DNA from: Selaginella tamariscina
Taxonomy: Eukaryota > Streptophyta > Lycopodiopsida > Selaginellales > Selaginellaceae
DNA: 64,000 bases
Assembly: GCA_003024785.1 (NCBI GenBank)
Contig: PUQB01000830.1
Coordinates: 1 to 64,000 of the forward strand
Reading direction: 5' to 3'
The notes under the pieces were generated by a model, which searched no databases, had not been told where the DNA came from, and saw only the letters and a list, made by a program, of their open reading frames with translations. A program made the position numbers and the translations under genes. This document shows positions 2,601 to 64,000 of this stretch, in pieces; positions within the stretch are counted from its first letter, which is position 1; each line of letters opens with the position of its first letter.

Positions 2601-2645
2601 GTGCTGACATAATACGAAGATGACCCTTTCTACTGAGTGCATCAG

Positions 2646-6030: not shown

Positions 6031-6032
6031 AT

Positions 6033-17960: not shown

Positions 17961-17964
17961 AATT

Positions 17965-18045
17965 GATAAAATTGGAACGATACAGGAAGTTAACATGTCC
18001 CTTGCGCAAGGACGACATGCACAAATCGAGAAATGGTCCAAATTT
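17965..18045 (+). pseudogene. U6 snRNA-like copy A, 5'-truncated
   Basis: About 80 bp match the body of U6 snRNA: GATAAAATTGGAACGATACA, then a diverged 'gaagttaacatgtccct', then GCGCAAGGACGAC, and ACAAATCGAGAAATGGTCC. The 5' stem-loop of U6 is missing, and several bases in the ACAGAGA region differ (ACAGGA). No upstream sequence element or correctly placed TATA box was seen. A second copy lies at 62284-62363 in unit B. Confidence 0.75.
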
Positions 18046-18459
18046 AGTATTTAATTCAGTGATATTCATAAAATTCAATTATGTTTTCTTGCCATGTTTT
18101 GTTTTTGCAATTTGATTTATCAAAATTCAATCTGTTTCATAATTTCTTATTTTATTTTTGTATTTTTCTAATGCTTACTAATATGTAATAGTGGTTTTTA
18201 TGTTTAATTCAAAAATTTATTTGACTTCTTTATCTTAACTGGGATTTAACTGTATTTCTATAGCAATATGAACATTCAAAAAATTAGAATATTCCAAATA
18301 TAAAAACACAAATTATTAAACTTCATGTATAGTAGTGGTTATACTGAATGATTGTTTAATTCGATCCCTTATTTACATGCTACTTACGAGAAGAGTCTGA
18401 TAAGCACCTAGTTAGCTCAAGCTGGATATAATGACCAGAGTGCAATATATGAATCTTGA

Positions 18460-18551
18460 GATATTTTGTATAGCAAGTGGTATCCTTCGATTGTAGTCAT
18501 AATCCGCACTCTGTTATGGTTCAAACATAAACTAGTACCATAAATGTGTAC

Positions 18552-18613
<62 letters not shown>

Positions 18614-19310
18614 TTACTATTGTAGTTTAGCTTGTTATTAAGTAAAATAAATGATAAAGACATGATATATACTCTTCTTATACTTACAGATATATTATAT
18701 ATGTTATACTAGTTTACCTGTTGTCTCATCCACTGTAGCAGCAATTTTGCCATCTGGACGTATGGAAACATCTCCAATACCAGGACGATCACGACATATT
18801 CTTTTACTGATGTAAATGTGTTCTGTAAAGACATTATTTATCATACATGTTATGTTATATGTACATCTCCCTCCCTCCCTCCCTCCTCTCTATATGTGTG
18901 TGTATCTATGTGTGTGTGTGATGTATATGTACAGGTAACAGAATAATCAATCTTAGTACTGCATTATGCACTCATCAATGGTGATCAATGTTTAACTACC
19001 TGGTGTTATCAATGTTGAAAAAGATGGTGTTGTCATCAGCAGCTCCTGAAATGCCACCTCGGCAAGATGCATCCAATGCAATACTAGCACTAACCAGACC
19101 AAACTCTTTAAACCATCAAAGAGAAGGAACTTTTGCAAATATATAAACACATACGACGATATGTTCTGTAATATATGAATGCACGATATGTAACTTACCA
19201 GGTTCAGTGTGGAAACGAGTAGAAATACGTGGTAACTTGGGGTTCCATAAATCCCATAATGCCATGGTTCCAGTTAAGTATGTGTGTCTGTGCATAGACA
19301 GACCACAAGC
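18460..19310 (-). pseudogene. DSE1-type WD40 protein, C-terminal half (copy A)
   Basis: Minus-strand exons: 19215-19305 encodes GTMALWDL(W)NPKLPRISTRFHTEP; 19020-19110 encodes a segment with TKLDASCRGGISGAADDNTIFFN-like sequence; 18738-18830 encodes NTFTSVKRICRDRPGIGDV and SIRPDGKIAA; 18460-18530 encodes the end (IYDYNRRIPLAI). This matches the second half of plant DSE1, a guanine nucleotide-binding protein beta-like WD40 protein linked to plasmodesmal size-exclusion limit. It begins in mid-exon at about 19310. The N-terminal half lies inverted at 23199-24816. Confidence 0.75.
18553..18612. repeat. (GT)n(GA)n microsatellite
   Basis: An uninterrupted GT run followed by a GA run inside an intron of the DSE1 C-half. 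The matching intron in unit B (63027-63090) carries the same compound repeat. Confidence 0.9.
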
Positions 19311-36504: not shown

Positions 36505-36665
36505 TTAAGTTGTAATAAATAATCCAAAATTAATTATAGATGGAGAAATATACCAGCATATTCTTTTACACACACAATCTTTTAGTTGCCGAACATTATC
36601 AGGTTTAAGGCTAAGTATCTGCTTTGTAACATCGAACCCATCATAGAAATTGCAGTTTCCACACT
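36505..36665 (-). other. Possible exon, unrecognised
   Basis: The minus strand encodes NCNFYDGFDVTKQILSLKPD then NVRQLKDCVCK in a stretch with balanced codon use, just next to the DSE1 fragment on the other strand. No family recognised; it may be chance. Confidence 0.25.
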
Positions 36666-37245
36666 GAACCTGGTAAGTTACATATATGTACATACATATA
36701 TTACAGAACATATCGTCTACATATGTGTATATATTTGCAAAAGTTCCTTCTCTTTTGATGGTTTAAAGAGTTTGGTCGGTTAGTGCGCGTTGGATGCATC
36801 TTGCCAAGGTGGCATCTCTGGAGTTGCTGACATCTTATTCAATATTAATAATACCCAGGTATCAACCATTGATGAGTGCATAATGCAGTACTATAAGATC
36901 GATTATTTCTGTTACCTGTGCATATACATATACATATACATACAAACACACACACACACACATAGAGAAGAGGGGGGGCGGAGGGAGGGAGATGTACATA
37001 TAACATAACATGTATATAAATAATATCTTTACAGAACACATTTACATCAGTAAAAGAAATATACAGGTGGATGGGACAACAGGTAAACTTAACTATATAC
37101 ATATATAAATGTATTTGTAAGTACAAGAAGAGTATATTCATGTCTTTATCATTATTTATTTTAAATAAAACTAAGTAATCTCTAAGGTCAAGGGATACCA
37201 CTTGCTATACTAAAATATCACTCCGACTCGGTAAATATTTTAAAT
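36660..37245 (+). pseudogene. DSE1-type WD40 fragment (middle to C-terminus)
   Basis: Plus-strand remnants equal to the minus-strand DSE1 copies: 36660-36670 (FHTEP-like exon end), 36755-36855 (FDGLK ... LDASCQGGISGVAD ... NINNTQ), 37034-37080 (NTFTSVKEIYR then a jump to GGWG-like sequence, with about 55 bp holding IGDVSIRPDGKI lost) and 37195-37235 (IPLAILKYHSD). The intron between them has a CA run at 36948-36962. Confidence 0.7.
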
Positions 37246-37259
37246 AGTATTCAAGCCTA

Positions 37260-37970
37260 TATTATTATGATTTTTAACAAATAATGTAATAGTTATAATA
37301 TAATTTCATTACAGGTTACTCGTGTTTGCTTTTCAAAGAAGCATATTGAAAATGAACTTCAATTTTAAGCTAGTTAAGTTGCTATTAATCAGATTATTGA
37401 TGGCTTAAGTGTGCCAGAGAACACAGACACAAGAGCAATAACATAAGAATGACAATGTCATTTAAAGTTTGCATCCTCCATACTCATAATATATATGTCT
37501 GAACAGGAATGTATATGTATATGATGTATGTATACCCCTACATACAACACATGTATTAAAATGTATATATGTATTTGTCTCTCTCCCCCTCTCTCTCTCT
37601 CACACACACACATGCACACGCACGCACGCACTGAAATACAAGAATCCCTGTGTTAAAATCATTAACAACTCTTTTTCTAACGTAGTTTTGTGCTCTCTCT
37701 CTTTCTCATCACTCACTCACACTCTCTCTCTATCTCTCTCTCACACACACACACTGATCCACACTAAAGTGGTGGGTATCCTACATACGAAGACAATGGT
37801 TTGTATGCAAAGTATTTGTTCATTTAGACACATACACACACATATAAGTTTTCTCTCCAATTGAGTCTAGTTCTAAGGGAATATTGTCAAAGAATAATCG
37901 TAAAACTAAATAAAAACAAAATATTTATATATATATACGAAAATTAAAATAACGTTTCTTCACAAATTGT
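37260..37970. other. No gene; microsatellites and SCPL 3' flank
   Basis: CT/CA runs at 37577-37630 and 37696-37755. The text around 37640-37910 matches the reverse complement of 17180-17560 and 33770-34060, that is, SCPL downstream sequence. Confidence 0.55.
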
Positions 37971-39430: not shown

Positions 39431-40295
39431 TCACACACATTACACCAAATATCATTTATGTAAGAGTGTTGTGGTTTGCTTGAAACATGTTGGGTGAAGC
39501 AATATTATTTTAAATTAATTAATGTTATTTTTAAAGAGTAATTATTTATATTAAATTGCAAAATCGTTCTTTAAATCAAAGTGTCGAACCAAAGTTCCAT
39601 AAGAAAGATGAAAACTATGATGATGGATATTATAACAAAGAGTATGTCCACCATCCTAAAATATATTCAAATATATAAGGAATATAGGATAGATATTCTA
39701 TTTAATAATAGTTCTACTCAAGATAATAATCAATTTAATGGATTGATTCATTTTCTTTAACTTTTTATTACATAAAGATATTGAACCATATCTTTTTAGA
39801 TTATGATTAAACATTGAATTAAAAATTATAAAAGATTAAGTATTTAATCCATTTTGGATTTGAAGTTCAAATATGTGTTTGTGAATACATACACAATAGT
39901 CTCTTTCTTAAATAACTCGACAATATCGATTATTAATGTTATGTATTTAAAATGTTCATAAAGAGGATTGGCTTCATATATCGAAGTTATTTGAAAACTG
40001 AATATATATGCACGTTGTAACTAAAGTGGGCATGATACGTGAAAATGGGAATATAAAATAAATTACTAATTAATACTTAAGTTTTAATTATTAATTAATC
40101 ATTTAATTAATATGTAATTAAGCCTTAAATATTAATTAATTAATTAATTAATCCTTCAATAACCTTACTTAGTAAGGAATATTCCTAAAATATCTTAGAA
40201 TATTCATATTATTCTAAAAATAGTTTACAATAATGAAGAAATACTATCAAACATAATTACAAATGAAATCATTTTCTTATCAACATGTTAATTTT
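39430..40295. other. AT-rich, no gene seen
   Basis: No coding signal. It separates the SCPL cluster from the FCP1/ParB-like locus and may contain one end of any element there; no terminal repeat was found by eye. Confidence 0.5.
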
Positions 40296-40296
40296 T

Positions 40297-41465
40297 TTAT
40301 AAATACTTTCTTCTATCATACAAAGAAATTTTCATTTTGTCTAAATCATCACTCTCCGGATTAATCAAATCATTTTGGTCAATATCTTGATGTTGTTGCC
40401 ACCACTTAACACTCTCACGAATGCAATTGGGAGTTGCCATCCTTGTTAATACATAAGATGTGATAAGAGAAGGTCTGCATAAAGGCTCATCTAAAAACTG
40501 ACGTTCCTTAAGAATAATATTATAAAGCGCCCGGTTGCTATCCTTCATTTTATAAAATTCAAATCACGAGAAAGAAAAGCTTCAGGAAATGTATGATACG
40601 GTGGATACTGCTCACAAAAATTTTCGAGATTCTTCTTTCTGAGGCACGTATCCAAGTAGTTCACTAGCTCATCCATGATATCGGTATCAGAATATGGATC
40701 GAAAGTGATTGGATGAATACAAGCAATGTTTTGGTTGAGCATAGCCTTCTGAGGAGAGTCGTCTACTACTAACATATGTGCTTCTTATCCTTAAGCGACT
40801 GATCTCCCCATGAGTCCCAATTATTCTTTCATTCTTGAAGAAGTATGGCTTGCTTTCCTTTCTTATATTGTGAAATTCGAGAGGTTTATAACACATTCGC
40901 TGGTCAAAAATCCAATCTTTACGAATCACCTCTTCTGCAACACTACAATGTTTCTTAAGAAATTCAACAGCGGTGTTAAGTTATGAATCTGCATGCATGA
41001 CCAAATCCCCACAAGCGCACCCATCTCCTTAAGCTTTTGAAAGAGACGATCCAACCCTGGACGAAAAATAATATCATATCGAAATTTACCATGACAAGGA
41101 ATGAAATCTCCTTGTTTGATTTTTTTTTCCTATCCTCGGGCCTTTGTCGATGAAGCAGAACACCATTGACATCCAACAACACAATATGGCCATGAGTAAC
41201 ATGAGATAGCGTTGCCTCTTGAATACTTTGCAAATCACTTGTTTGCTCCCTTTCACATTTATCCGTTGCCACTATCTCGTTGCCTATCCCTTCATCATTT
41301 AATTGTACATCATCCTTACAAGATTCAGATATTGCATGCGCTGAAGAAATTGATTTCGGAACTGAAGCCAATAAAAATGATGATGAAAAACTGAAGTGGC
41401 CCCCATGGTAACGATGTTTTGAGCTGCATTATTATCCATTTCCTGCATGAACTCTGTCATTCTGA
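40297..41465 (-). CDS. FCP1/NIF-type HAD phosphatase-like protein, frameshifted
   Basis: The minus-strand frames join into an FCP1-homology domain. The phosphatase motif appears as HIVLLDVNGVLLHRQ (about 41145-41190; the first Asp of the usual DxDx(T/V) is kept and the second is Asn, as in many plant relatives). Next come IIFRPGLDRLFQKLKEMGAL and VGIWSCMQIHN (about 40985-41075), KDWIFDQRMCYKPLEFHNIR, then HMLVVDDSPQKAMLNQNIAC with the VDD motif (40710-40775), and a long C-terminal tail ending YDRRKYL at 40297. At least four frame shifts are needed. The start is unclear: MTEFMQEMDNNAA at about 41462 directly abuts the upstream gene. Relatives dephosphorylate proteins such as the RNA polymerase II tail. 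Confidence 0.75.
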
Positions 41466-44400
41466 CATGTGGCACAAGAAATTGTCGCCAAACCCTTCTC
41501 TTACCTCATGCCAATGCTGAAAATCCATGTTCTCAATTTCATTACATCTGCAAAATGATAATTAGCTGACCTTAAAATTATCAAGGTATATTATTTACCT
41601 TGTTAATGTGTGACCCATGTTTGAACTAAAAGCTTCATTAATCCTTGAGAATTTATTTTCTGTACAAATATAAAGAAATATACAAAAATGCCTTATGTTA
41701 CACTCATTTACAACTATTCGTCACTCTAACAATTCATTAACAATTCTTCTTCGCTATTACCTTCTGAGTGAGGCGAAGAAGGTCTAAGCCGCTTGTGAGA
41801 TGGTTCAAGATCTTCTGCATCTTCTATTGATGTTTCCATGGGTAATGGAGTGTGCGAATGTTCTGTACTCCTCGAGATAACTTCCGGTCTAATATCTGAT
41901 TGAAGTTCGTCCTCAGACTCCGACATTGAACCAGATTCTCTTCAGAGCTATCGCACTTATCTGGAGGGAACTTTCTCAAATACTCCTTATGGATTCGTTG
42001 GGGTACTCAGTTGAGAACCTATCTATCCACTTGTTCAGGTCCTCAACCATGGTCTTATCCTTTTCAACGGCAAATACACATGTATGCCGAAGGTAACACT
42101 CCTTCAAGACGGACCCCCTAGTGCAGTAGTCAAAAACCCACGCATCACTGTGAGGACCCCTGATCAAGTTGACGATGCTCCGTGCCGCTTGACTTTGATG
42201 TTTGGATAACGTACATTGCCGAATACGTCACTCTCACCTATCGGTGTATCGGATGGAGGTTCAGGGCCGTTGGAGTGCAAACAGATGCCTGGCCAGTCAT
42301 TTGGAAGTTTGAAATTGTTTGGCGCATTCCTAACAACCAAGTGAACAACCGAATCAATGCACTTCGGATAGCATCATTCATATAAAATCCTGTCCAACGA
42401 TGTTATTCCTCTTGGCAAAGGAGAAGGCAAAGTATCGGTGACATGAGCAAGAATCAAGAAATAAATACCTGAAAACGTAGTATCAGTCAAGAGTGCAAGT
42501 ATGAATTCAATAATAAATACCTTCTTTGTACATGCTTGCACGGCTAAGTTTCTCCACCAAATCCTCTAGTGTCCTGTCTGTCGAAGGATTTTTTGACACC
42601 CGCCGATCCATCACGAACAATTGAAACGGTTTCCTACAAGCAGTGATGTACCCCATAAAGTCTCCGAATCCAACAACAAACATCTGTAGGGCTTGTCGTG
42701 ATTCGTAGCATCCTCCTTTATAAGGTTCAACTCGGTTCTCCGCTGCTGAAGGACTGCCATAAGAGAAGGCGTCATCGCAATGTTCTCCTTTTGGCGTTGG
42801 CGTGCAATAGATTCTTGCCCAGATCTTCCGATTGATTCACCCATTCGACAAGCATATCATCGTTGTCACATGCAAATATTTGCTGACCTCTTCGTATGTT
42901 GAAGCCGATCCAACCCAGTTTGTGGCAGTGTATTCCCAACCACTCCTTGAAGTGCCTGACCGTCTTCAACTCCATTGCCTTGAGATGAAAAGGAGAGGTG
43001 GGCTGCTGTTATTAATTGTAATTTGCCATCAATCACCAAATCAGCCAAGACTTCCATCTCCTCCATCGTTGTTCCATTTAAAGGCTTCAACCATGTGAGC
43101 TTGAAATCGTTGTCTACATCCTTTATAGATTGAACAGACTTAGCCTTCGGCGTCTTACTGGGTTTCTTTGCAGACTTCTCTGAGGGCTCCACTTCACTTG
43201 TCTGCTTCTTCTTCAGTGTTCCTTTTGCAAAGGATTCCATAATCCCCAACCATTTGGCAAAGATCCTATCTCGGGACAAGAAATCAACATCATCAAAAAG
43301 GATGTTTCCTTCCCGCCCACCTGGGCAAAATCAACTGCTACAATTTCTTCAACTCTCTGAAAAAAGACAGATTAATATACCGGCGAGATAAATCCCGCCC
43401 AAACAATTTGCTTACCCGGTATTCCGCAGATTGTGTATTCCCTGCGGTAGCTCTTTGTGGTCGCTGAAGAGATTCCCACACGGCTCGCGTGTGTTTGAAC
43501 TTCTCCCATATTTTGCTGTTGTAGTGGTTGGTGTCTGCAGCGTCCCATTCCGCCGATAACTTATGGTACTGCTCGATTGTGAGATTCGGCTTCGCTAAAA
43601 ACGCCGATCTTTTGTCAGCTTCTCACGGGTATGCTCGGAAAGTTTTGTTGCCATCGTTCCTTTGTTGTGTTCGAGAAGTCGTTGGGCTGCCGTTATTGTG
43701 TGCTGGCCACTAATGATGTAGTACTTAACTGATTTTCTATTCTCCGTCTGAACCTTCTTCATTTGTTCCGGTGTTGTGATCCACACTTTGTCAGCGCCTT
43801 TTCTTTCGTAGTATGCGCACAAAACAGCATTATGTGGAACGGTGTAAGAATTGTCGTCCTTCATCTTCTCCATGAGCTCAGCTACACGTTCCTGTTGAGT
43901 GGCCTGTAATTGAAGTTTGGGTTGACGCTGCAATACTTAACCCTACACTGGTAAATCTATCATCCAACATCATTTCCTTGTGCTTATTGCAGCATGGGAT
44001 GCCACAGGTGCAGCTGACAAAACGACTAATGATTTTCTTTCTACGATCCGAATCAACATGTGTGATCCCCGATTGATGCTGTTCTAATGTTCTCGGCACA
44101 CTCTTCCAGCTCCCGAAATTTCTAAGCAAATTGAACGTGATCTGTAAGAACCTGAGACCAAGCCACCCTCTCAATCTCCTTATGATGTCGCTGTGTTCTT
44201 CTTCAATGTGAAGAGGGACGATTGCTCCACTTGCTGATTTTCTGTATTGTGAAGCAATATCTCCTGACAATACACCTACTCGATGAGTCTGAAGATCTTC
44301 GAAGTAGACATCCAGATGGATCCCCTCCATAGATGGGCTTTCGTTGAGTTGAAGAAGAACTCCAAGGTCAACATCATTAGTGAACACGTGAACGTCATTA

Positions 44401-44850
44401 TCCACAAGTCGACAAAACCACCCGAAATTAATGTTGTAACTGGCGACCTCTGGATCCGAGAACGTGACATTGGATGGAACAAGGCATATGTGTCGAGCAT
44501 CGTCAATCTGGGTTCACAGCATGCTTTCGGATGCTTGACTAGCACACCCACTTTCCATTGTTTTGCTTGTCCATGCGATGTGACAGAGGTTAGTTTGACA
44601 GCAACCATGGTTGTTCCAATGCGCTTCCCGTTTAGTTTGAAATATGGCCAAGTTGATTCCAGAATCCCCCTGCCCATCTCTTCTCCTGCTCTCGTCTTTA
44701 ATGTCACCTCAATTCCACATCTGAATACAAAAATGATTAGTTCAAGTATCCGAGTATAACAGATTTTATTTTAATTCTTACCCAGAATTTGACGACGACT
44801 CCATACTAATGACTCGATCTCCTTGTTTAATAAATCGTCCTTCTGCAAAA
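41465..44850 (-). CDS. Multi-domain protein with ParB-like motif and possible methyltransferase-like segment
   Basis: Minus-strand exons. 44780-44845 encodes EGRFIKQGDRVISMESSS. 43965-44720 encodes GIEVTLKTRAGEEMGRGILE ... RRLRGWLGLRFLQITFNLLR ... SCTCGIPCCNKHKEMM. 43595-43960 encodes a ParB-superfamily-like block: CAYYERKGADKVWITTPEQM and YYIISGQHTITAAQRL, resembling the G-x-H-x-x-x-A-A box. 43440-43595 encodes LTIEQYHKLSAEWDAADTNH. 42540-43360 holds a Lys/Pro-rich linker and MELKTVRHFKEWLGIHCHKL. 41970-42170 encodes AWVFDYCTRGSVLKECYLRH and TCVFAVEKDKTMVEDLN, a layout like motif I and the acidic loop of SAM-dependent methyltransferases. An acidic tail (41726-41926) and the small exons 41600-41665 and 41465-41550 follow. 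Several frame breaks. No family is confidently recognised as a whole. Transcribed away from the palindrome arrays. Confidence 0.6.
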
Positions 44851-45135
44851 TAATACACTATGAATACAAATCATATAAAAACGCACACACACTTGTATAA
44901 ACCCGAATATACAAAAATAATACACAGAGAGAAGTAGACGAATTAACTGTCCAAAGCTCACCTTGCAAAGAAAGATAACATTTCGTTTTAGAACCACCAC
45001 AAATGTGAGCTCTGGACAGTTTTACATAGTTTCCTAGCTTTTACTCGAAATATTATGATAAGATGATAAAAGTAAATAAAATGAGATATGCAACTTATAT
45101 ATACTAATACACATATATATTCACATGGAAGGTGC

Positions 45136-46272
45136 GGCGGGATTAATCTCGCCACCCCTTCAATGCCTCCTGAAAGAGTGGGCGGGATTAATCTCGCCAC
45201 CTTTCTGGAGGCCTTGAACGGGAGTGCGGAATTAATCTTGCCACCCTTCTCGGTCTCAGAGAGAACTGGGCAGGATTTATTTGGCACACCCCTTCAGTGA
45301 CTCCAGAAAGGAGGGATTAATCTCGCCCACCATGTAAGGGATGGTTAAATGAATTTCGCCACCCTTCCCGTTCTCTCCATTGGTATGTTGTAAACCTTCT
45401 ACGTCTCAGACAGAAACGTTTGGGATTGGTCCGACTCACCAATGAGAGAAAAAAGGAAGGGTGGCGGGATTCATTCCTCCAACAGGCATTGAAGGCTCGG
45501 CGGGATTAATCCCGCCGCCCAGGGCCTTCACTCGGTCCCTGCGGCGGGATTAATCCCGCCGGACGCCAATTCCTGCTCAAATCGGGCGATTAATCCGCCG
45601 CCTAGGCCTTTAGGCAGGCCTTTGGCGGGATTAATCCCGCCGATTCGCACAGGGCAGCGGGATTAATCCCGCCGCCCAGGCCTTCACTTGGGCCCTAGGC
45701 AGCGGATTAATCCGCCGCGTACGCATGCCCTGTGCGGAATCGGGCGGGATTAATCCGCCGCCTAGGCCCAAGTGAAGGCCGGGGCGGCGGATTAATCCCG
45801 CCGGATTCCGCGCAGCGGCGGGATTAATCCCCGCCTAGGCCCTTCATGCAGGCCAATGGTGGCAGGATAAATCCCGTCCGATTCCGTGCAGGGCATGCAT
45901 ACGCGGCGGGATTAATTCCGCCGCCAGGCCCTTCACTCGGGCCTTAGTCGGCGGGATTAATCCCGCCGCCTAGGCCCTTCATGCAGGCCAATGGCGGCGG
46001 GATAAATCCCACCCAATTCCGTGCAGGGCATGTGTACGCGGCGGGATTAATCCCGCCGGACGCCAATGCCCTATGCGAAATCCGATGGGATTATCCCGCC
46101 GCCTAGGCCCTTCAGGCAGGCCAATGGCGGCGGGATAAATCCTGCCCAATTCCGCGCAGGGCATGCGTACGCGGCGGGATTAATCCCGCCGCCGAGTGGC
46201 TAATTATATAGCAGCGGGATTAATCCTGCCGCTACACACGTCTCACCATATAGTGGCGGGATTAATCCCGCC
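45136..46272. repeat. Palindrome array L: GGCGGGATTAATCCCGCC every ~43-45 bp
   Basis: The perfect 18-bp palindrome occurs exactly at 45499, 45543, 45624, 45950, 46040, 46173 and 46255, with about fifteen one- to three-base variants between. Most start-to-start distances fall between 40 and 47 bp. The spacers here share GCCTAGGCCCTTCA-, CAGGCCAATGG- and CAGGGCATGCGTACGC-like words. Copies at the low-coordinate end (45136, 45181, 45312) end TCTCGCC instead of TCCCGCC. The array lies just upstream of the minus-strand gene ending at 44850 and is a GC-rich island in an AT-rich window. Confidence 0.97.
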
Positions 46273-46274
46273 GC

Positions 46275-46348
46275 TACACACACACACACACAGATATATA
46301 CAGATTATACAGATACTGGTACACATAATATATGTATGTATACATAGG

Positions 46349-46381
<33 letters not shown>

Positions 46382-46665
46382 ATGTATATCGTGTGTATGT
46401 GTGTGTGAAACAAATAAAATCATACAGATAAACAAACACACACACACACATATATATACAGGAGTGTGCGTGTGTGTGCGAGAGATACAATTAACAAATC
46501 AATAAAATTATACAGACACACACACACACATATATAGATAAATAAATAGAATATATATATATCTGTGTGTGTGTATATGTATATATATATCTGTGTGTGT
46601 ATATGTATACGAGTGTGCGTGTGTGTGCGAGAGATAGAGATCTATAAGAAGAGAGAGAGAGAAGG

Positions 46666-46728
<63 letters not shown>

Positions 46729-46887
46729 GTGTGTGTATATGTATACGAGTGTGCGTGTGTGTGCGAGAGATAGAGATCTATAGAGAAGAGAGAGAGAGAA
46801 GGATATATATATATATCTGTGTGTGATATGTATACGAGTGTGCGTGTGTGTGCAAGAGATAGAGATCTATAGAGAAGAGAGAGAGAG

Positions 46888-46918
<31 letters not shown>

Positions 46919-47095
46919 CTGTGTGTATATGTATACGAGTGTGCGTGTGTGTGCGAGAGATAGAGATCTAAATTATATTATTAAGATACACACACATATA
47001 AATATATATGTGAATAAAAATAAATAAATATCACAAATAAACGCAGAGGAGTGTGCGTGAGAGAGAGAGAGAGAGATCTCACCTGTGTGAGAGAG
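46275..47095. repeat. Microsatellite field with a ~90-130 bp tandem unit
   Basis: Contains (AT)n at 46667-46727 and 46894-46918, CA runs and four copies of a compound unit 'tatacgagtgtgcgtgtgtg' + 'cgagagatagagatctata' (46607, 46741, 46830, 46932). No coding sequence. Confidence 0.85.
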
Positions 47096-47099
47096 AGAG

Positions 47100-47425
47100 A
47101 TTTCGCTGCCGCCGCCGCCGCCTTACAAACCCTAGGAATATACCAAAACCCTAAAAGGAATAGTAATCGAATATTCCTTTTAAGAATATACTTAAACCCT
47201 AAAAAGAATAAACTATAGATTCGCCCTAAACGAATATTCTTTCATTATATTATCAGCGTGTGCGTGCGTGGGTGTATCACATACACCCCAAGAATAAATA
47301 TCATGCAAGGGTTTAACACGTGTGTGTCCATGAGAGTGTTAAAGTTTCACATGCAGCGATACATATATACACACATAGTATTATACACATAGACATACAT
47401 ACATATTAGTATATATTAATATTAG
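47100..47425. other. Central inter-array segment, GCC repeat and possible promoter region
   Basis: A (GCC)n run at 47107-47124, next to 'ttacaaaccctagg', lies roughly midway between the two divergent genes. The motif AAACCCTA occurs here several times and is common in plant 5' regions as a telo-box. No gene. Confidence 0.35.
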
Positions 47426-47429
47426 AGAG

Positions 47430-47935
47430 ACAGAGTACAGGATCATGTATGGTGTGTATGTATGAGAGAAGAGTGACAATACATATTATGGATCATGCAT
47501 GGTGTGTATGTTTGAGAAAAGAGAGACAGTACATATTTACATGGATCATGCATGGTGTGTATGTATGAGAGAAGAGTGAGAGTGTTAACAAATTAAATTC
47601 ATACACATTGGATATATTAGTACACACATATACATACACACGTGTATACACACAGACATACATACATATTACATGTGTAAATTCAATGTAGGGTTTAGGG
47701 TTTAGGGTTTAGGATGGATCATGCATGGTGTTTATGTATGAGAGGAGTGAGTGTTATACACAGATATACATTATACATATTACATAATATTGTAACATCA
47801 GTACATATTATGGATCATGCATGGTGTGTATGTATGAGAGAAGAGACAGGCTACATATTATGGATCATGATCATGCATGGTGTGTATGTATGAGAGAAGG
47901 GATTATGCATGGTGACACTGTGTATGTATGAGAGA
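47430..47935. repeat. Dispersed tandem repeat 'ggatcatgcatggtgtgtatgt'
   Basis: The unit 'catgcatggtgtgtatgt' + 'atgagagaagag' occurs at about 47447 (as catgtatgg), 47491, 47547, 47718, 47815, 47872 and 47894, with variable spacers holding 'acatattatggat'. GCATGC/CATGCATG (RY-like) cores are kept. Confidence 0.8.
47691..47713 (+). repeat. Interstitial telomere-like repeat
   Basis: Three consecutive TTTAGGG units, the plant telomere repeat, stand within the inter-array segment. Confidence 0.9.
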
Positions 47936-47939
47936 AGAG

Positions 47940-48990
47940 ATAGAGTGTTAACAAATGAAAATCGTACACATTGCATATATTATATTAGTACACATATATA
48001 CATACACACGTGTATACACACAGACATACATATATATTACATGTGTAAATTCAATGTGTTACATACACACACACTGAGTACATATAGATCATACATGCGT
48101 TGAACATGATGTTTTTCAATAAAGAAGCAACATATAATTTCTCAAGTTTGGTTTAGGGCAATGTGCATGTGTGTGCATATGTGTCTCTGTAAGTGCTTCT
48201 AATGCGTGTGCACATGTATATATAAATTTATGATTGTGTTTATATATAATATGTGCAAAACAAACATCGAATAATTAAGAAAATAATATTAATATACACA
48301 CTATGAACATATTTTAAATTATACATAATAATATATGATTTTATCTAATATATAGCCATATATAGTTTTAATAATATATATTAATTTAATATTGATAATA
48401 AGGTTTAACACTAGAATATTCTTGAAATAATAACAAATTAATTGAGAAAATCCCATTAATATAATACGAATAATTACTGAGATAATTAATAATAAGACTA
48501 ATTTAATTATGATAATTAGGTTTAATATTGGAATATTTTGAATATTAAGAAAATAAAAGAATATCCCATTAATAGTAGGAAATGTAAATTAATTACTCGA
48601 GTAATTAAGAAAATAATAATAATAAACAGACTATGAATATATTTTAAATGATACATAATAATATATCAATTTATTTATTGTATTATGTATATATATATAT
48701 AATATAAACTTAATAATATATACTTGAATATTAAGAATGTAGAATAATTACAAAAATTTCGTAATATTAAACAGCTTGAAGCACTTGAATGACATTAAAT
48801 GCAATTTTAAAACACTCATTGGAATTGGAGAGTATATATGTCAGACTGTCGGTTATTTGTTTCAACTCATCTTAAATTTTCTTTTCTGTTATTTCAAAAA
48901 TTTGAATTTCTGACATAAGTATTATCAGTCTGACATGTAAATTTGAAAATACATTTAATTTCCCACTCAAATTCAGATCTGGTTCTTTCT
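47940..48990. other. AT-rich, no gene seen
   Basis: AT-rich sequence with many near-repeats such as 'aattaagaaaataataataataaaca' (48269, 48606). No coding signal. Confidence 0.5.
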
Positions 48991-49045
48991 CCGGCAAGGG
49001 TTTCTTCATTTTCACTCTTCAGATTTTCTTTTTTCTTCTTAGTGA

Positions 49046-49120
49046 TCAGCTCAGGAGCGACATTAAATTGGGTGCGCTATTGTTTATAGGAAAGCACGGC
49101 GCCTTCAGTGCTGTTTACAA
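49046..49120 (+). other. Possible leader exon of the DUF7869-type gene
   Basis: The segment ends in ...TTTACAA before GTAAGT (49121), and an acceptor TGTGCAG lies at 50180 just before the first ATG of the downstream gene, so the right palindrome array would sit in intron 1. Read in one frame it gives SDIKLGALLFIGKHGAFSAV then Y, resembling a protein kinase glycine-rich loop. This could be coincidence. Confidence 0.35.
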
Positions 49121-49290
49121 GTAAGTATTATAAACAAATTTAGATATATTTATAAAGATTCACTCTCTTACATTCTCTCTTAAATTTTAGAATTTAGGGA
49201 TTTAGGAATGCATTAGGATTACAATATATTCTGTTAGGGATTTATCCCGTTTAAATATACTTTTAACTTAGTATTCTCGGTTAGCCGGGC

Positions 49291-50035
49291 GGCGGGATTA
49301 ATCCGGCCATTTTTTTTCGCCTCTTTGAAGAGGTGGCGGGATTAATCCCGCCACCATCTCTTTCATAGCTATGGCAGAATTAGTTCGGGCAATGCTTCTC
49401 CGCCTCTTAAAAAGAGCGGCGAGATTAATCCCGCCGATAACTCTCTCAACTGATAATGATTTACTTGAATTTATTAGAAAGAGTTGTCGGCGGGATTAAT
49501 CTCGCCAACCATTTTAGGAGGCAGAGAAGGGGTGGCGGGATTAATCTCGCCACTACTTCCCTGTTTTAAATATTTGTGGGCAGAATTCATCCCGAATCTC
49601 TTTGAAATCATAGTTTCGGAGAGAGTTGTGGGCGGGATTAATCCCGCCGCTTATTCCCCGTCGTCAGAGTTGTGGGCGGGATTAATCCCGCCGCCTATTC
49701 TCCGTTCAGTGTTGTGGGCGGGATTAATCCCGCCCCCTCTTCCTCGTCGGAGGAATTTGCGGCGGATTAATCCCGCCGACTCTCACAGACGAGGAAGATC
49801 CGGCGGCGGGATTAATCCCGCCGGTACTTCCTAGTCGGAGGGAGCCCGCGGCGGGATTAATCCCGCCGCTACTTCCTCGTCGGAGGGAGCCCGGCGGGAT
49901 TAATCCCGCCGCTCTTCTCGTCGAGGGAGTCGCGGCGGGATTAATCCCGCCGACTCTCTCGAGGGAGTCGGCGGCGGGATTAATCCCGCCGACTCACTCT
50001 GAAGGGGTAGAGTCTGCGGCGGGATTAATCCCGCC
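49291..50035. repeat. Palindrome array R: GGCGGGATTAATCCCGCC every ~43-45 bp
   Basis: Exact copies start at 49335, 49631, 49675, 49717, 49805, 49850, 49893, 49934, 49973 and 50018, with variants at 49291, about 49417, 49486, 49534 and 49761. The steps from 49631 onward are 44, 42, 44, 44, 45, 43, 41, 39 and 45 bp. Spacers (TTCCTCGTCGGAGGGAGCCC-type) are unrelated to those of array L, while the 18-bp core is identical. The low-coordinate end again has TCTCGCC variants. The array ends about 145 bp before the acceptor of the DUF7869-type gene. Confidence 0.97.
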
Positions 50036-50186
50036 CATCAGTTATATTAATAAAGCATGAGATATTATTTTATATATAATTATGTATTATTGCACATGCA
50101 TATTATTAAGCAACTGCAGTTATGATTTCTTAAATATTGCATAAACAGATATCATAAATAACACAATTATTTATGTGCAGGACAAT

Positions 50187-53100
50187 ATGTATAATACTGG
50201 AGATAAAGTATGTCTTCTTCGGAACAACGAGATAGTTGGCACTGGAACTGTGGAAGTTCGAGATGATAATGCATCATGTCACAATATTGCCCAAGGATCT
50301 TGTGTGTACGTATGGGTGAACACCATTTTCAAGCATGTTGAGGTTCCTGGAATGGAATTTGAGGAGGGTTCTCCTGTATTGTGGAATTTGGATGAAGTCA
50401 AGGCTGACACAGAATATACAGAGTCACAAACAAACAGTAGCACGAGTTTTCCAGATGATGGCTTGCCTGCTGTGATGGATGAGGTGATTCTCTTTCTTCA
50501 TGAGATTGAGGTTGGGAGAGGCATCATCACAGCTATAAATCCAATGGAAGCAGTGTCAGAAGAGAAACTAGGGTCCGACTTCGTGGGTGTAGTTGTGACA
50601 GAGGTTTCACCTAATGGCACTTTGCATCCTGGATCCCTCGTGAGGTGGCGAACATCTGAATTAAGACGGCAAGATGGTTCAACATATTCTGGGTTGGATT
50701 TCAATAATAACAACCCGGAAGAACAACTCATATTTGAAGAGGTTCCTTGCATTGGTCCTATTAAAGAAAAAGGCGATTCATGGGTTGCAGATCTTCCCCT
50801 ACATGTTTCAGCAAGAGGATGAAGATGGATCCTACATCTTCCGAAAGTGTTACGAGCATTTCCACGATTGACTGCTGCAAGAAGAAGTGTTGTCAGATGG
50901 CAGACCGGAATGAAATTACCCAATGTAGACATGTCTTTCGTACGCTCACCCAAAAGCAAAGGCATGAGTTTGTATATGCTGCACTAACTGGGTGTATTGA
51001 TGGAATGGCTTCGGACACAGGTTATCAGAGTACATCCATGGTATTTAATAAGGTGGCCATCTGCTTCAAAGCTTGGTACAGTATATATGGGATCCCAAAG
51101 ACCACGTTCTACCGTCGGAGGGATGAGTGGTTAGATGGAGCGCGAACCTCAGTACATGGGAACACTGGCTTGGTCAAAACCCGCTCTCACATTATGGCAG
51201 CCATAGAGATACTCAAGGCTTTTGTGGAAGCAAATGCAGACAGGATGCCTCACAAATGCCGAACCACAAATGCAGGGGTCAGGGAAAATCTCAAGGTTTT
51301 GCCTTCGATCTACACTCAATTGAAGCTGTGTGAACATGTGAACAAGTGCCTCAGCTTGATGGGGCTGCAAGCAATCTGCACTGGTACCTTCAACAACATA
51401 TGGAATACTCATTTTAAGGATGTGGAGATTGCAAAACACTCTAGCTTTTCCAAGTGTGACACTTGTACATCATTGAAGGCTGCAGAGGCTTGTGCAAAAA
51501 CCTTGGTGGAGATCACTGCCATTCAAAAGAAGATGGAGGCCCACATGATTGCGCAACAAACTTGCCGGTCTCAGTACTATGCACACCGCATGCTTTCTGT
51601 GTCACCCATCAGAGTACCTGTGCTTGATCCATGACAAGATGGATCATTCAAAGACCAGCATTCCAAAGCTCGTTGCAACACCAAAGTGCCTTGGAAATGT
51701 CATGAAACTTCCGATTTCATTGACAGGTGTGCTAACACATGGACACGGTTGTGAATCATATGGACACTTTTCACTTCCACATTGGTCTAGCGACTCCAAT
51801 TTCACTATTGGGTCGTTGGCCATGTGTTTCAGAAACCTTGAAGCCCACTCACAGACAAGTCCTATCGGTGATCTCAAAGTGAAGAAACAACACCTTCAAC
51901 CTTTACATAATGCTCTCATGAACACGTCTGCACTTGAGGCTACTTGGGAATATGAGAGGCATTGTCAGCAACCTGCACAAAAAACAGATGGCCCTGTTGA
52001 GAGTTCAGGTTCAGTGGAGGGATCTAGCTCAAATAGTGTACATGTGTCCTCAACATCAAATAAGCTTCCTCGTCATTTGCTTTTACAGATGGATAATTGT
52101 GCAGGCGAGAACAAAAATAGGTAAATCATTTTACTTAAGGGTTTCTCAAGCTCATACTTACTTTTATTTTCTAGATATGTGCTAGCATACTTGTCAATGC
52201 TTGTTGCCAAAGGTGTGTTTGAAACAATCACGCTCAGTTTTCTTATGGTTGGTCACACTCATGAAGATATTGATGCGTTCTTCAGCAAGGTCTCCAACTC
52301 TACAAAAAGGACAAGTGCACTTACCTTACCGCATATGATGAATCTTTTTGAAAATTGCATCTCCAAAAAAAGTTGTGCTTTGCTTGTGACTGAGGTGCCA
52401 GACTTCAAAAAATTTCTCAAGGAGTATATAAAAGAGGGGAGTGATTCTTTAGTTGGTCACCTTGTGCCGCTACAATTCTTTTTCTCCATACGAGATGGTA
52501 TACCTATTATGCAGTACAAGTTACGGCCATCAGAGCAGGAGTGGTTACCGAAAGAGGGGTTAATGCTCTTCAAAAGTGGAGAGAATGGAAAGCCACTTCT
52601 CCCAGAAGGACAACCAGACCCTATTCCATTGAGTGCCCAGCTCAAGGAACAAGAGGTTATTATTGATGGCATCAAAAAATATGTGGCATGGGTTCAAAAA
52701 TCGATGCCAAAGAATTCTGATAAGGCAACTGGTTACTCAGAACTATATAAGCATGTGGTTGACTATTGGGAGACTGTTGTTCGAGAGTTGGAAGGGCCTA
52801 CTGTCACAAGTACAGAATTGCAACACCCTTTTTGGCCTAAAACAAGGTGGCGAGAGGAGATTGAAATGACATCACTGAGCACAGACGACATAGAAGCCAG
52901 TAGTGATGTGGAAGTGCAAACCCCACACTTTGTTGGACAAAGGAACCAAAAACCTAAAGCATACTTTGATTGCTGCCAGGATCTTCAAAAACTAATGATG
53001 GTTCTCATTACTCCAGATGCGTCATATAATCAGCCTATTTGGATGGGTCAAATTATCGACACACCTGAAGTAATCACAAAAAATAGTATTGTTAAGGTTG

Positions 53101-53420
53101 CATGGTTCAAACCACAAAAAAGGCGACACGAGAAGGAGAGCGAAAGATATAATGGATGCCTAGAGAAAACATGGTCTCCCAATCAAAAAGACCCAGCATG
53201 TTTTATAAATGTTAAATCCATTCGATATGGGTGGATGTCAAGAAGCGTTGATAAAGTCACGATTAACAAAACTGCAAGGGAATGTATGTTTCTGAGCTTA
53301 AAGCAATTACAAAATTATAAATATCATATATTTAATATTCATAATATTATAAACTCTTTAATAATAGTACCAAATTGTTTACTTAACTATATAAATTTAA
53401 AAAATGATATGGAAGATTGA
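50187..53420 (+). CDS. DUF7869-type protein, possible RNase H-like transposase relative
   Basis: The first ATG after the acceptor at 50180 gives MYNTGDKVCLLRNNEIVGTG, then a second similar segment DEVILFLHEIEVGRGIITAI. A frame break near 50810 leads to a Cys cluster (DCCKKKCCQM), RVFRTL-type helix (CRHVFRTLTQKQRHEFVYAA), FYRRRDEW, SFSKCDTCTSLKAAEAC, then LIHDKMDHSKTSIPKL, LLQMDNCAGENKNR, and after a 54-bp intron (52121-52174) YVLAYL ... SFLMVGHTHEDIDAFFSKVS. The D.MD, MDNC.GENKN and VGHTHEDID blocks are hallmarks of proteins labelled DUF7869. A second break lies near 51595. GTATGT at 53284 may be a donor, so the last residues are uncertain. Function is unproven. Transcribed away from the arrays. 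Confidence 0.8.
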
Positions 53421-53424
53421 CTAT

Positions 53425-54250
53425 ATTATTATAGGATTTAATATATATTATTACTACTACAAATTTTTTAATTAATAATGTTATATTTAAATATTAATAT
53501 TTTAATAACAACATCAATATTTATATAATGTACCTCTTATGCTCTTCCTTAATTGTTATATAGGCAATATATTATATAATTTAATACCTTCTACTTTTAT
53601 AATGTTATTAATTTTTGTTTAATGAATGCTATAATTTATTAAAGGGTAGAATACAAATAGAATATATCTAAAGAATATTCGTTTTCAAATATATATTTAA
53701 AGAATATTCCTTTAATATTAGAAAATGCTAATTAAATAGCTAAAATTGCTAATTATTAGGAAATGGGACTATAGCCATGCCCATTTAGTTACAACTTGCA
53801 TATATTAAGGATAATGATTTTACCAACTGCTAAATTTATTTAGACTATGTCCACTACATGAAGAATTAGGTTATCAGAATATATTTATAATCCCAAGTAA
53901 GTATTTTGATATTTATTAAGCATATTTTTAGTATTTTTAATAGTTTAAGGTGTAACATAATCATTGTTTCAAAAGTGCAAAATCAAAGAATTATTAACAA
54001 TGTAGTCGACATCAAGAGCACAAGGTTTACAATGGTAATTGAACATCCACATAAAAGTCATGAGAAAATGTGTTTTCTATTAAAATTAAAATACACAAAA
54101 GTGTATATTCGACGATAATTTTAATTTAAGCATTAAATAATTTGTAAGAACCTAATTAAAAAGGAATCTGAAGCACAATATAATGAAATTCGTATGTGGT
54201 GGAGGGAGAAAGAACATGTAAACATTATAAATTTATTACAACTCGAATGT
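53425..54250. other. AT-rich, no gene seen
   Basis: No coding signal beyond short chance frames. Any right end of an element containing the DUF7869-type gene should lie here, before unit B starts near 54300; no terminal repeat was recognised by eye. Confidence 0.45.
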
Positions 54251-56575: not shown

Positions 56576-56590
56576 GGCATTTGGTTTGCA

Positions 56591-59024
56591 ATGGATTTCT
56601 TTAAGGTGGTAGCCTTCCTTGTTTGTTTGTGTACAGGTTATGAATTCCTCACAACTGGAAATGCAAATGGAACTTAGAAGAGACCGGTGTAGTCTACCTT
56701 TCGCGGAATTCCAGCTCATTCGTTACACAGTGGTAAGCAATGGAAGCATGGATATACTCAGCGACAATGGCAATTTCGCTCTGGCGTTTTGGGGGAAAAG
56801 AAGCATTGTCCAACATAAGTGAGAACTTCACTGAGAGCATCTTTAACCCAATATCTCTTGGCCGTGATCATGCTGAAAACAGGTGAATCTCAAACTGCTG
56901 CAGTTCCTGTTGGAAATCCAATTTCGATAACTATGATTGGAACTCCAATTATGAGCGCTGCTTCCATGGTCTGAGATCGTGTTTAATAGTCTAGAGTTGA
57001 ATGACACAGGCAACCTTGTTCTCTATAGAAACAGCACTGTGGCGTGGCAAAGTTCAAACATCCCACTGATGTCTTGCTTCCCGGGCAACTGTTGAAGTCC
57101 GAATGAAATTAACATCATACGGTTCATACCTTTATATATCTGAGGTTGTGCCTGGAGGTCTCGCATTGTATATGGATGGTGATCTGGAGTATCAGCAAAG
57201 TTATGGTGTGTGGAGCTGGAAACCCGTGGAGAATCGTCAGTAAGATCTGTTTTGAAGACAGCGTGTCCTGGTTACGAAGCGTACTCCATTCACAGGGAAC
57301 CAGATCTACTTGGCTTACGAAACAGTTGCAAAGAACGTGAGTTTTACCACTGTATGTTCAATACCTAAGTGGTACTTGCAACATCAACTTCAACATCAGT
57401 ATTACCGTATCTTCGTCTCGACAACCAGGGCGATCTGTCCTGTACAGGTATGACTCAAACTCGAGTGATTGGGTTACAGATGTTCGATTCTCCGATAGTT
57501 GGGGTGGTTCCTCTTGCAAGCTTCCATCAGCATGTGGTCCTTATGGCATTTGTGACCCAACTAACAAGAATATTGTGAATACGACTATTATTATTGTAAA
57601 CCCCGAACTTTGTATGGGGTTGGATATCCTTCGATGAAGTTCGTGAAGCCAGTTCTGAACGCAACCAGTGCTGAAAACTGCTCTCTTTGGAACTCAGCAG
57701 CGAATGTTTATGACAATTCAACTGGGGAGTGCTTTGCATTTTCTTGGTTGACTGGGACTTGCGTCGAGATACCAGAAGCATCACTGCATTCCTTTGCCAG
57801 TACAGAGATAATACAGTACGGGTACTCTGGTAATTGAGGGAATCTTTTATTATTGGCAGCCATTTTGGCAGCCAGAGGGTCACTAGCAATGCGTTAGCTT
57901 AGTTTGTAATCGCCAAAACTAAACACAAACTACGGGGATGGGTGAGCATAGTCAAGTATTATGTAGTTAACTACTTTAGCAAAGGCCGTTCGAGAAGTCG
58001 AGAGCTTGCTATCCACAAGCAGGGACTGCCCCGGAGGTACACTTACATGGAGCTGCATAGTGCACAAAAGGATTTTACTATGAAACTTGGTGCCGGCGGG
58101 TTGGAGGTGTACGAGGGATGACGAGCGATGGAAGACATGTTGCGGTGAAGAAACTTGGCGAGAATGCGACGGACAGTGCCAAGCAGTTTGTGACGGAGCT
58201 CGTCGGCGTCGGAGGTATAAGCCACCTGAATGCTGTGAAGTTGTATGGCTTCTGCATAGAGGTGCAAATAAGAGCTTCTTGTCTACGAGTTTATGCCGAA
58301 CGGTTCTCTGGACAGATGGATATTCAGAGAGGGTGCGTGCCTGAGTTGGCAACAAAGAGTCGACATCGCGCTCGGTACCGCCAGGGACTGTCGTACCTTC
58401 ACCAGGAGTGCAGCGAACCAATCCTTCATTTAGATGTCAAGCCTCAGAACATACTCCTGGATGAAAAGTTCGTTGCAAAGGTTGCAGATTTCGGAATGGC
58501 TAAGCTCCTAACCAACCGAGACTGACTCAGGTGAGACACGTGTGAGGGGAACAATGGGTACCTGCTCCAGAGTGGATGATGAGAGGCGTAGCGACCAAGA
58601 AATGTGACGTGTACAGCTACGGTATGGTACTACTGGAACTTGTAGGCGGTCGCAGATATAGACTGGGAGAGTGAGTGAATCGGAGACGGAGACTGTGGTA
58701 TTTTCCTTCCTGAGTGTTAACCAGGTTAAAAACAACGGGGATGTGTTCAAAGTCGTGGATGAGAGGATTCGAGTTTCTGCCATGGAACAAGGCGAAGAGG
58801 TGAAGAACATGGTGTACATAGCACTATGGTGCATACAGGATACTGCGTCTCACCGGCCAAGTATGAACGAGATTGTGGAAGCTGGAAGGACATAAAAGTG
58901 TTGGGAGCCTCCCATGTCCTTTCACTTCGATGTGCAGACGGATGATATCGTGAAGAGTGTTGCACTTGGTGCTGTTCAGTCAGAGCAGATTGTCACTGTT
59001 TCTTCGATCATTCCAGCTTGTTAA
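56591..59024 (+). pseudogene. G-type lectin S-receptor-like kinase, copy B, frameshifted
   Basis: A duplicate of the copy at 8794-11215: MDFFKVVAFLVCLCTG start, VSNGSMDILSDNGNFALAFW, DTGNLVLYRNSTVAWQS, SSCKLPSACGPYGICDPT (EGF-like), NCSLWNSAANVYDNSTGECF, then the kinase domain: [56 protein letters not shown] and [14 protein letters not shown] in one frame, and KCDVYSYGMVLLELV after it. The end VSSIIPAC precedes TAA at 59022. Indels differ from copy A, so a combined comparison suggests an intact ancestor. The kinase Lys, catalytic Asp (HLDVKPQN) and DFG are all present. Confidence 0.88.
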
Positions 59025-59289
59025 GATGAAGCTTACTGTTTGTAATATTATTATTAATGTTATACTAATGTGTGTGTGTAGAACTGTATATATATAAGAT
59101 AACCAACATACATGCTTTTCTCACATAGTGCTTTTAATGATTTACATTACATTATATATATGAAATATAAGTTCCTTAGGTCATACAGGGATACGAGCAT
59201 CATCTGTTTACTTTAATTATTATACTCTCTCACACGCACAAACACAAAACACAACAGGCTAAGGTGTTTAACCTTTAAGGTTTTTGAGC

Positions 59290-62363: not shown

Positions 62364-62919
62364 AATATTCTAATCAGTGATATTCATGAAAATTCAATTA
62401 TTTTTTCTTGCTTGCCCATGTTTTGTTTTTTGCAATTTGATTTATCAAAATTCAATATGTTTCATAATTTCTTATTTTATTTTTGTTTTCTAATGCTTAC
62501 CGGATTTATCTTTAACTCAAAAATTCTATTTGACTTCTTTATATTAAGTTGGGATTTAACTGTATTTCTATATAATATGAAAATTCAAATAAATTATGCA
62601 CACAGAATATTATTTCAAATATAAAAGCACAAATATTATTAAACTTCATACAAGCGAAGGTTTATACTGAAGCCAACGATTGTTTAATTCGATCCTTATG
62701 TACATGCTGAAGACTTACATGAGAAAGAGAATCTGATAAGATACCTAGTTTAAAGGTGACCAGAGCGCAATAAATGAATTTTGAGACGACCAGACTAGCA
62801 ATTTGCTATCCTTTGAAAAGCAAACACCAGTCACCTGTAATGGATTACATTATAATTATTTAAAATTATTAAATTATATTTGTCAGAAAATCATAATAAT
62901 ATAGGCTTGAATACTATAT

Positions 62920-63049
62920 AAAGTATTGAGTGATATTTTAGTATAGCAAGTGGTATCCTTCGATTGTAGTCATAAATCTGCACCCTGTTATCATTCAACA
63001 TAAAAATAGTATCATAAATGTGTACGTGTGTGTGTGTGTGTGTGTGTGG

Positions 63050-63092
<43 letters not shown>

Positions 63093-64000
63093 TATTGTAG
63101 TTTTAACTTGTTATTAAGTAAAGTCAATGATAAAGACATGTATATATACTCTCCCTATACTTACAGATATATCTATATATGTATATATTTAAGTTTACCT
63201 CATCCACCTAACAGCAATTTTGCCATCTGGACGTATGGAAACATCTCCAATACCAGGACGCTCACGACATATTCTTTTTACTGATGTAAATGTGTTCTGT
63301 AAAGACATTATTTATAATACATTATGTTATATGTACATCTTCCTCCCTCCTCCTCTCTCTGTCTCTATGTGTGTGTGTATCTGTGTGTGCATATGTATAT
63401 GTACAGATAACAGAAATAATCATTATAGTACTGCATTATGCACTCATCAATGGTTGAACTACCTGGGTATTATCAATGTTGAAAAAGATGGTCTTGTCAT
63501 CAGCAGCTCCAGAGATGCCACCTCGGCAAGATGTATCCAACGTAATACTAAGCACTAACCAGACCAAAACCCTTTAAGCCATCAAAAGAGAAGGAACTTT
63601 TGCAAATATATAAACACATCCGTAGACGATATGTTCTGTAATATATGTATGTACGCATATGTAACTTACCAGGTTCGGTGTGGAAACGAGTAGAAATGCG
63701 TGGTAACTTGGGGTTCCGTAAATCCCATAATGCATGGTTCCATCTTCATATCCAGTAAGTACGTTCAGTGTTTCATTATGTCCAGGCGGCACAAAGAGTT
63801 GCAAAGCCATGCATTTTCTTTCAAATTGGTTTCACCACACATAACACTTGATATGCGTATGTATTGAATTGCGGGTTATAATTGAAGTGTAAGTAGGCTG
63901 ACTTGCCTGAGCTTTTGGCATCCGAAGGACGAGAAAACTGTTGCACACGCTTTGCTGAGTCAATATCCCAAACTTCAGCCTGCAAATTACAAAGCTTTGT
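62920..64000 (-). pseudogene. DSE1-type WD40 protein, C-terminal part (copy B), runs off the window
   Basis: Minus-strand exons: 63920-63985 (AEVWDIDSAKRVQQFSRPSD-like), 63680-63815 (MALQLFVPPGHNETLNVLTG, YEDGTM, LPRISTRFHTEP across small frame breaks), 63470-63590 (FDGLKGFGLVSA ... DTSCRGGISGAADDKTIFFN), 63215-63300 (NTFTSVKRICRERPGIGDV, SIRPDGKIA) and 62925-63005 (NDNRVQIYDYNRRIPLAILK). Unlike unit A, the YEDG-TM exon is continuous here, which gives the ancestral structure. N-terminal exons should lie beyond 64000. Confidence 0.82.
63020..63092. repeat. (GT)n(GA)n microsatellite
   Basis: The counterpart of 18553-18612 in the same DSE1 intron. Confidence 0.9.

Follow-up and report, generated by a model that had tools for sequence, protein, structure and literature searches.

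Dyad arrays flanked by divergent DUF7869 and ParB-like genes in a probable DNA transposon of Selaginella tamariscina

Introduction

What are two arrays of short palindromes doing between two plant genes that are transcribed away from each other? The locus that raises this question lies in a 64,000-nucleotide stretch of Selaginella tamariscina DNA (contig PUQB01000830.1, positions 1 to 64,000), analysed as a whole and called the window below. A preliminary description, made from the letters alone, had proposed the region as a candidate undescribed mobile or site-specific DNA system, with arrays that might be regulatory or partition-like.

Results

The dyad GGCGGGATTAATCCCGCC occurs in two arrays, flanked by a DUF7869 gene on the plus strand and by a ParB-like gene that diverges from it. 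Allowing up to 3 mismatches, it gave 36 matches in 64 kb against 0.00 expected (100 shuffles), so the palindrome arrays reported between the divergent genes are real. A gapped scan, in which sites were accepted at a score of at least 10, placed 24 sites in array A (45,136–46,272) and 17 in array B (49,237–50,035); mononucleotide shuffles of the array sequence (n=3) gave 0 sites at score 11. The two arrays are separated by an AT- and microsatellite-rich spacer (46,273–49,236; GC 0.29 over 46,273–49,290), and each is indeed near the start of one gene, array A at 332 bp from the minus-strand start and array B at 152 bp from the plus-strand start. An extra dyad (43,382–43,399, plus strand) was found between apparent splice sites of the minus-strand gene.

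The spacing between sites has a median of 44 bp and falls within 38–48 bp in 18 of the 23 gaps of array A and 12 of the 16 of array B; helical phasing of the window arrays is weak (R=0.48, best period 13.6 bp). Pairwise identity of the dyad cores is 0.88 in A (from 21 of its 24 sites) and 0.96 in B (from 15 of its 17), values biased upward by the picking of cores through their match to the consensus. Linkers were compared if they measured 15–32 nt (13 of 20 in A, 11 of 14 in B) and reach 0.59 and 0.60, barely higher than the 0.53 and 0.52 of shuffled sequence. This disfavours an ordinary minisatellite, since a freely drifting tandem repeat would hardly retain the palindrome alone. Pairs of dyads were found neither in prokaryote contigs nor in viral contigs, and a search of the viral contigs with a single dyad matched 1 contig (L001).

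The plus-strand gene (50,187–53,420) matches PF25273 (DUF7869) with E=1.1e-26 and 94 bits, the curated cut-off being 26, in agreement with the type first assigned to it. By our reading it starts at the ATG at 50,187, and it is broken, the joined model needing two frame changes and one intron (52,121–52,174). This model aligns along its full length with database relatives (12 aligned), at 46–47% identity for two partial ones, 35–36% for six and 27–29% for four, in a protein search whose scoring was confined to the 7983 candidates with the most words in common. Three acidic motifs on the plus strand, IHDKMDH (51,627–51,647), MDNCAG (52,089–52,106) and VGHTHEDIDA (52,248–52,277), were placed by alignment and with the help of the structure that AlphaFold predicts for a DUF7869 relative. 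This model appears to contain an RNase-H-like core, with the first motif on beta 1, and its acidic residues sit on the expected elements (strand 503–511, strand 648–654 and helix 693–708). D509, D654 and D696 are invariant in all 30 rows of the DUF7869 alignment (P0031 and P0032 left out). Among the matches listed, each of the 21 structural neighbours that span the core is a DDE transposase or an integrase, with modest Z throughout, and DUF7869 proteins carry Tudor/PWWP-like N-terminal and BAH-like C-terminal folds (middling Z) beside the DDE-like core. The DUF7869 protein is probably a DDE transposase, presumably with catalytic activity. The profile Transposase_23 matched the N-terminus of the plus-strand gene below threshold (E=0.054, 13.8 bits, cut-off 21), no MULE profile appeared among the Pfam matches of the 14 sequences scanned, and a PDB sequence search with the C-terminal DUF7869 ORF gave no match. 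The family ranges from moss to mussel among named database matches, no relatives were detected in the viral contigs, and our literature search returned no paper naming DUF7869 or DUF8039.

On the minus strand, the divergent accessory gene (41,730–44,804) starts, by our reading, at the ATG at 44,804 and is also broken, many frame changes being needed. Breaks in the window genes could reflect decay or assembly error, which are indistinguishable from this sequence. The gene encodes a ParB-like core (YYIISGQHTITAAQRLLE, 43,670–43,723, minus strand), aligned with YFVIGGSHSAEARRQLV in the fern proteins described below, and then a region probably related to N6/N4 DNA methyltransferases. A Pfam scan of window pieces gave no ParB match, no methyltransferase match and no ParA; the ParB-like and methyltransferase assignments are based on the fern relatives. 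Protein searches with the joined minus-strand gene returned no match at E 0.001 and none at E 10. A third gene, a frameshifted remnant of an NIF/FCP1-type phosphatase (about 40,548–41,205, minus strand), matches PF03031 with E=8.6e-14 on a read-through of several frames, as the earlier identification would have it. No phosphatase was noticed in the ORF lists of the fern elements, and this remnant is probably a passenger.

Comparison of the left and right flanks revealed inverted ends that the preliminary description had missed, slightly outside its span of 40,297–53,420. The left terminal inverted repeat (TIR) ATATATGCACGTTGTAACTAAAGTGGGCATG (40,004–40,034, plus strand) matches the inverted right one (53,776–53,805, minus strand; sequence checked) imperfectly, with 29 of 31 alignment columns identical (E=7.5e-6), and the TIR core TGGGCATG has 2 copies in the 64 kb, sited at the two ends only. 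Because the three genes and the two arrays all lie inside these ends, the stretch between them is probably one element of ~13.8 kb, a large, partly broken plant DNA transposon. The proposal of a mobile element with symmetric sites is thereby strengthened, the TIRs enclosing the module and the plus-strand protein resembling a DDE transposase. The window TIR lacks CACTA. The best of 17 registers gave TATAT, within AT-rich sequence, as the candidate target-site duplication of the window element, and TAACAA (L005), TTAA (L004) and none (L008) for three of the relatives introduced below; these candidates are short and lie in AT-rich sequence. An empty-site check against a tandem copy inside the window was uninformative, clear homology restarting only ~500 bp beyond the right TIR. 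The window is rich in repeats.

We scanned prokaryote genome contigs with the DUF7869 alignment and recovered ten loci (L002–L011), evidently eukaryotic DNA inside prokaryote bins. Two (L002 and L011) came from separate bins and the rest (L003–L010) from one Trichormus bin; Trichormus is the cyanobiont of the fern Azolla, and L003–L010 are probably DNA of this fern. The deposition statement consulted in PMC5901025 does not include the run. In five loci (L004, L005, L007, L008 and L009) a second gene, with a long open frame (278–594 codons), is transcribed away from DUF7869, and its product combines a ParB-like core (VIGGSHSAEARRQL) with a C-terminal DNA methyltransferase. PF01555 matched single exons (E=8.6e-8 in L004, 4.1e-8 in L005) and the joined L005 exons (9.6e-16), which also matched a CcrM profile (E=5e-9), and the fern relatives retain the motifs IADIPYG and LDLFSGTG. 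The ParB-like assignment was made from the motif by eye, with no ParB profile matching and DUF6551 only at E=0.076; PHROGs and NCBIfam searches gave no ParB profile, a structure model of the ParB protein (pLDDT 37) was unusable for structure search, and no relatives of this protein were found in viral contigs.

The contigs of L007 and L009 stop within the methyltransferase, and those of L002, L003, L006 and L010 include less than 1 kb ahead of DUF7869, too little to show a divergent gene. In L011 more than 3 kb is available upstream of DUF7869, and neither a ParB gene nor dyads are present. The preliminary description had made its case depend on the two genes occurring together elsewhere; the same divergent pair is present in five further loci, with dyads in the gap in four. 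Both fern genes are under purifying selection. For DUF7869, compared among six loci with L003 and L008 omitted, dN/dS is 0.07–0.13 wherever dS is finite (13 of 15 pairs); for the ParB gene dS is finite in one pair of 10, and dN/dS there is 0.08. Values of dS lie above 1 or at saturation for 13 of the 15 DUF7869 pairs and for every ParB pair (10 of 10). Fern TIRs measure 37 nt in L004, 33 nt in L005 and 34 nt in L008 (within-element E of 0.005, 0.23 and 3e-9, respectively), and the same end sequence is also present in L006, L007, L009 and L010. L004 and L005 show the complete layout of TIR, ParB-methyltransferase, dyads, DUF7869 and TIR. The six fern ends read AACACTA (L004 right), AACACC, AACACG (three) and AACATG.

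Palindromes related to the dyads adjoin DUF7869 in eight of the ten loci, the exceptions being L008 and L011. In six loci the fern dyad is GTCGATGC-N3-GCATCGAC or a near variant, which differs from the window dyad; L003 and L002 have dyads of other sequence. With up to 3 mismatches, the fern dyad has 40 copies in total across these six loci, whereas five mononucleotide shuffles of all ten loci yielded 2 raw matches, and the half-site GTCGATGC is kept across the six loci despite mostly saturated synonymous sites. The fern spacings (n=34) cluster at about 31, 41–43, 50–54, 62–63 and 72 bp, or 3 to 7 helical turns, with R=0.83 at 10.5 bp, in a set of gaps that tandem duplication makes non-independent. 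L002 has dyads upstream of DUF7869 and weaker related copies downstream (70% identity, inverted matches). L008 is a deletion derivative, in which the ParB N-terminus and the dyads are both lost and both TIRs kept.

Several comparisons connect the window gene to the fern gene. With an HMM of the fern ParB-methyltransferase, the window ORF at 43,598–43,936 ranked 1st of 1572 ORFs (E=0.38). In a profile comparison this ORF scored 26.4; the best of 60 shuffles reached 24.0, and the runner-up among the 52 window ORFs of at least 110 aa reached 20.3. The whole joined minus-strand gene scored 29.8 against a maximum of 20.5 in 20 shuffles. In a frameshift-tolerant alignment the minus-gene slice came 1st of 40 slices (349 versus 313), with 60 column-shuffled profiles at 282 or below; we count this result as weak, since the reversed profile scored 304 and the gap costs were permissive. 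Further, the window gene and the fern gene share position, strand and order. We hold with moderate confidence that the window gene is homologous to the fern ParB-methyltransferase. In the window copy the N6/N4 DNA methyltransferase motifs of the ferns are unrecognisable, and the pieces scanned have no profile match. The DxPY counterpart is LFVMDRRVS by eye and VRNAPNNF in the frameshift-tolerant alignment, the catalytic letters being lost in both, and that of FxGxG is FDYCTRGS by eye, also without them, and unaligned in the frameshift-tolerant alignment; the motif reading is uncertain because the two placements disagree and the second motif is unaligned.

Discussion

We consider it likely that the locus is a decayed cut-and-paste DDE transposon of ~13.8 kb, with TIRs of ~31 nt, a DUF7869 transposase and a ParB-like accessory protein that binds the dyads. 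The DUF7869 protein would be the transposase of the element, and the divergent gene would supply a DNA-binding accessory protein built around a ParB-like core, which in the fern relatives forms a fusion with an N6-adenine/N4-cytosine DNA methyltransferase. One element protein, most likely the ParB-like one, would bind the dyads that lie between both promoters. Several molecules bound on one helix face could regulate both divergent promoters, and binding may mark or protect the element, as VANC and TNPA do for VANDAL and En/Spm.

A more far-reaching version of this model is possible, and we offer it tentatively. Land plants may harbour DUF7869 transposons with parS-like self-marking, in which the ParB-like/DNA-methyltransferase protein would load on helically phased dyads between the promoters and spread, or methylate bases (6mA or 4mC) that the host seldom uses as a silencing mark, keeping the element distinguishable from host DNA and expressed. 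Dyads and binder would co-evolve in each lineage, and in the window lineage the methyltransferase would have decayed to leave a pure binder.

The dyads might instead be bound by the transposase so that the ends can synapse, as with TNPA or Ac, with the ParB-like protein acting elsewhere, a reading that we regard as doubtful. It would suit the Tudor/PWWP-like and BAH-like folds of DUF7869 proteins (middling Z), as well as the L002 dyads upstream of DUF7869 with their weaker downstream copies; however, the window and fern arrays lie between two promoters, far from the TIRs, and L008 keeps its TIRs without dyads or ParB N-terminus, as fits a deletion derivative for which the ends are enough in trans. 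It is unlikely, in our view, that the dyads are host-factor sites used by the element as a promoter. The arrays do lie directly upstream of both genes, and GGCGGGA resembles an E2F site, but the dyad sequence is not the same in the window, in the fern loci and in L002, its place beside DUF7869 being constant, and an element-encoded binder therefore fits better than a conserved host factor. We likewise give little credence to a working methyltransferase that methylates the dyads in the window lineage: IADIPYG and LDLFSGTG persist in the fern relatives, but the window counterparts of DxPY and FxGxG, on an uncertain reading, lack the catalytic letters. Finally, two unrelated transposons or gene remnants lying side by side, with ordinary minisatellites as arrays, would accord with decayed genes in a repeat-rich window and are very improbable given TIRs common to the whole module, the recurrence of the divergent pair and of dyads in its gap, and dyad cores conserved between drifting linkers.

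An accessory DNA-binding protein acting on dyads has parallels in several systems. Bacterial ParB-parS also combines a ParB-like core with palindromic sites, with parS recognised through a distinct HTH domain; unlike that system, the locus has no ParA that we noticed and no replicon. Partition function was set aside on these grounds, and the parS-like idea stands as an analogy for DNA binding. In En/Spm (CACTA) elements, TNPA is an element protein that binds repeated, subterminal sites; the arrays here are not subterminal and the window TIR is without CACTA; the Transposase_23 match and the one fern end in six reading AACACTA are weak hints of kinship. Sola-1 elements produce a 4-bp target-site duplication, and VANDALs are MULEs whose VANC protein is not ParB-like.

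The closest parallel is Sola1-1_Ec32 of Ectocarpus, a large DNA transposon that, according to the available text of PMC12477816, carries on the strand opposite its transposase an accessory gene with a ParB-like domain and an N4C/N6A DNA methyltransferase. The same source cites similar accessory genes in green and red algae, and its authors suggest that the accessory protein binds and modifies its own transposon. Unlike there, the partner here is DUF7869, in plant and probable fern contigs, and the portion of PMC12477816 consulted has no mention of dyad arrays or a target site. In Arabidopsis VANDAL elements, an element protein (VANC) recognises tandem arrays of a short motif in non-coding parts, lying in upstream regions and introns as here and likewise differing between families, but the motif YAGTATTAY is no dyad of this kind (PMC5735166, in part). 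Fungal DNA transposons carrying TET/JBP, as presented in the accessible part of PMC12730594, also bear an enzyme acting on DNA modification, which is a dioxygenase rather than a methyltransferase and accompanies other transposase superfamilies.

The accessory gene is therefore of a known kind, ParB and DNA-methyltransferase genes having been published for algal transposons (PMC12477816, as far as its text was available), and to that extent the system is not undescribed. Our literature searches found no description of a dyad array as the partner of ParB-methyltransferase transposons, nor of DUF7869 as the transposase of plant ParB-methyltransferase elements; within the literature searched, the pairing with DUF7869 in plants is new, and so is a concrete candidate for the target site. 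The dyads offer a concrete, conserved candidate target for ParB-methyltransferase accessory proteins, whose target site goes unnamed in the available text of PMC12477816, and their half-site and spacing could be taken directly into assays of binding or methylation. A function as DDE transposase is suggested for DUF7869, an unnamed family, and the ParB-methyltransferase/DUF7869 module extends to contigs that are probably from a fern.

A deletion derivative and the surroundings of the element

At L008 (177-6220), one of the ten contig loci matched by the DUF7869 alignment, the TIRs and most of both genes have been retained, but the dyads and the N-terminus of the ParB-like protein are gone; this copy is a deletion derivative. 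The contigs carrying these loci (L002-L011) look eukaryotic, yet they sit in prokaryote MAGs, recorded as Synechococcales, Trichormus and Shimia.

In the Selaginella window, an old LTR retrotransposon (LTR-LTR identity ~81%) occupies 177-6940 and is probably gypsy-type, as judged by eye on its ORFs. A tandem duplicate (8780-11468 and 56577-59239, 88%) places one copy on each side of the element, and by eye we labelled it a putative receptor-kinase-like (RLK) gene region. Also outside the element lies an inverted repeat pair (36655-37348 and 62799-63687, ~79–87% identity), to which 17877-19272 is related. Enclosed by the element's TIRs is a NIF/FCP1-type phosphatase remnant (40548-41205), possibly a captured host gene.
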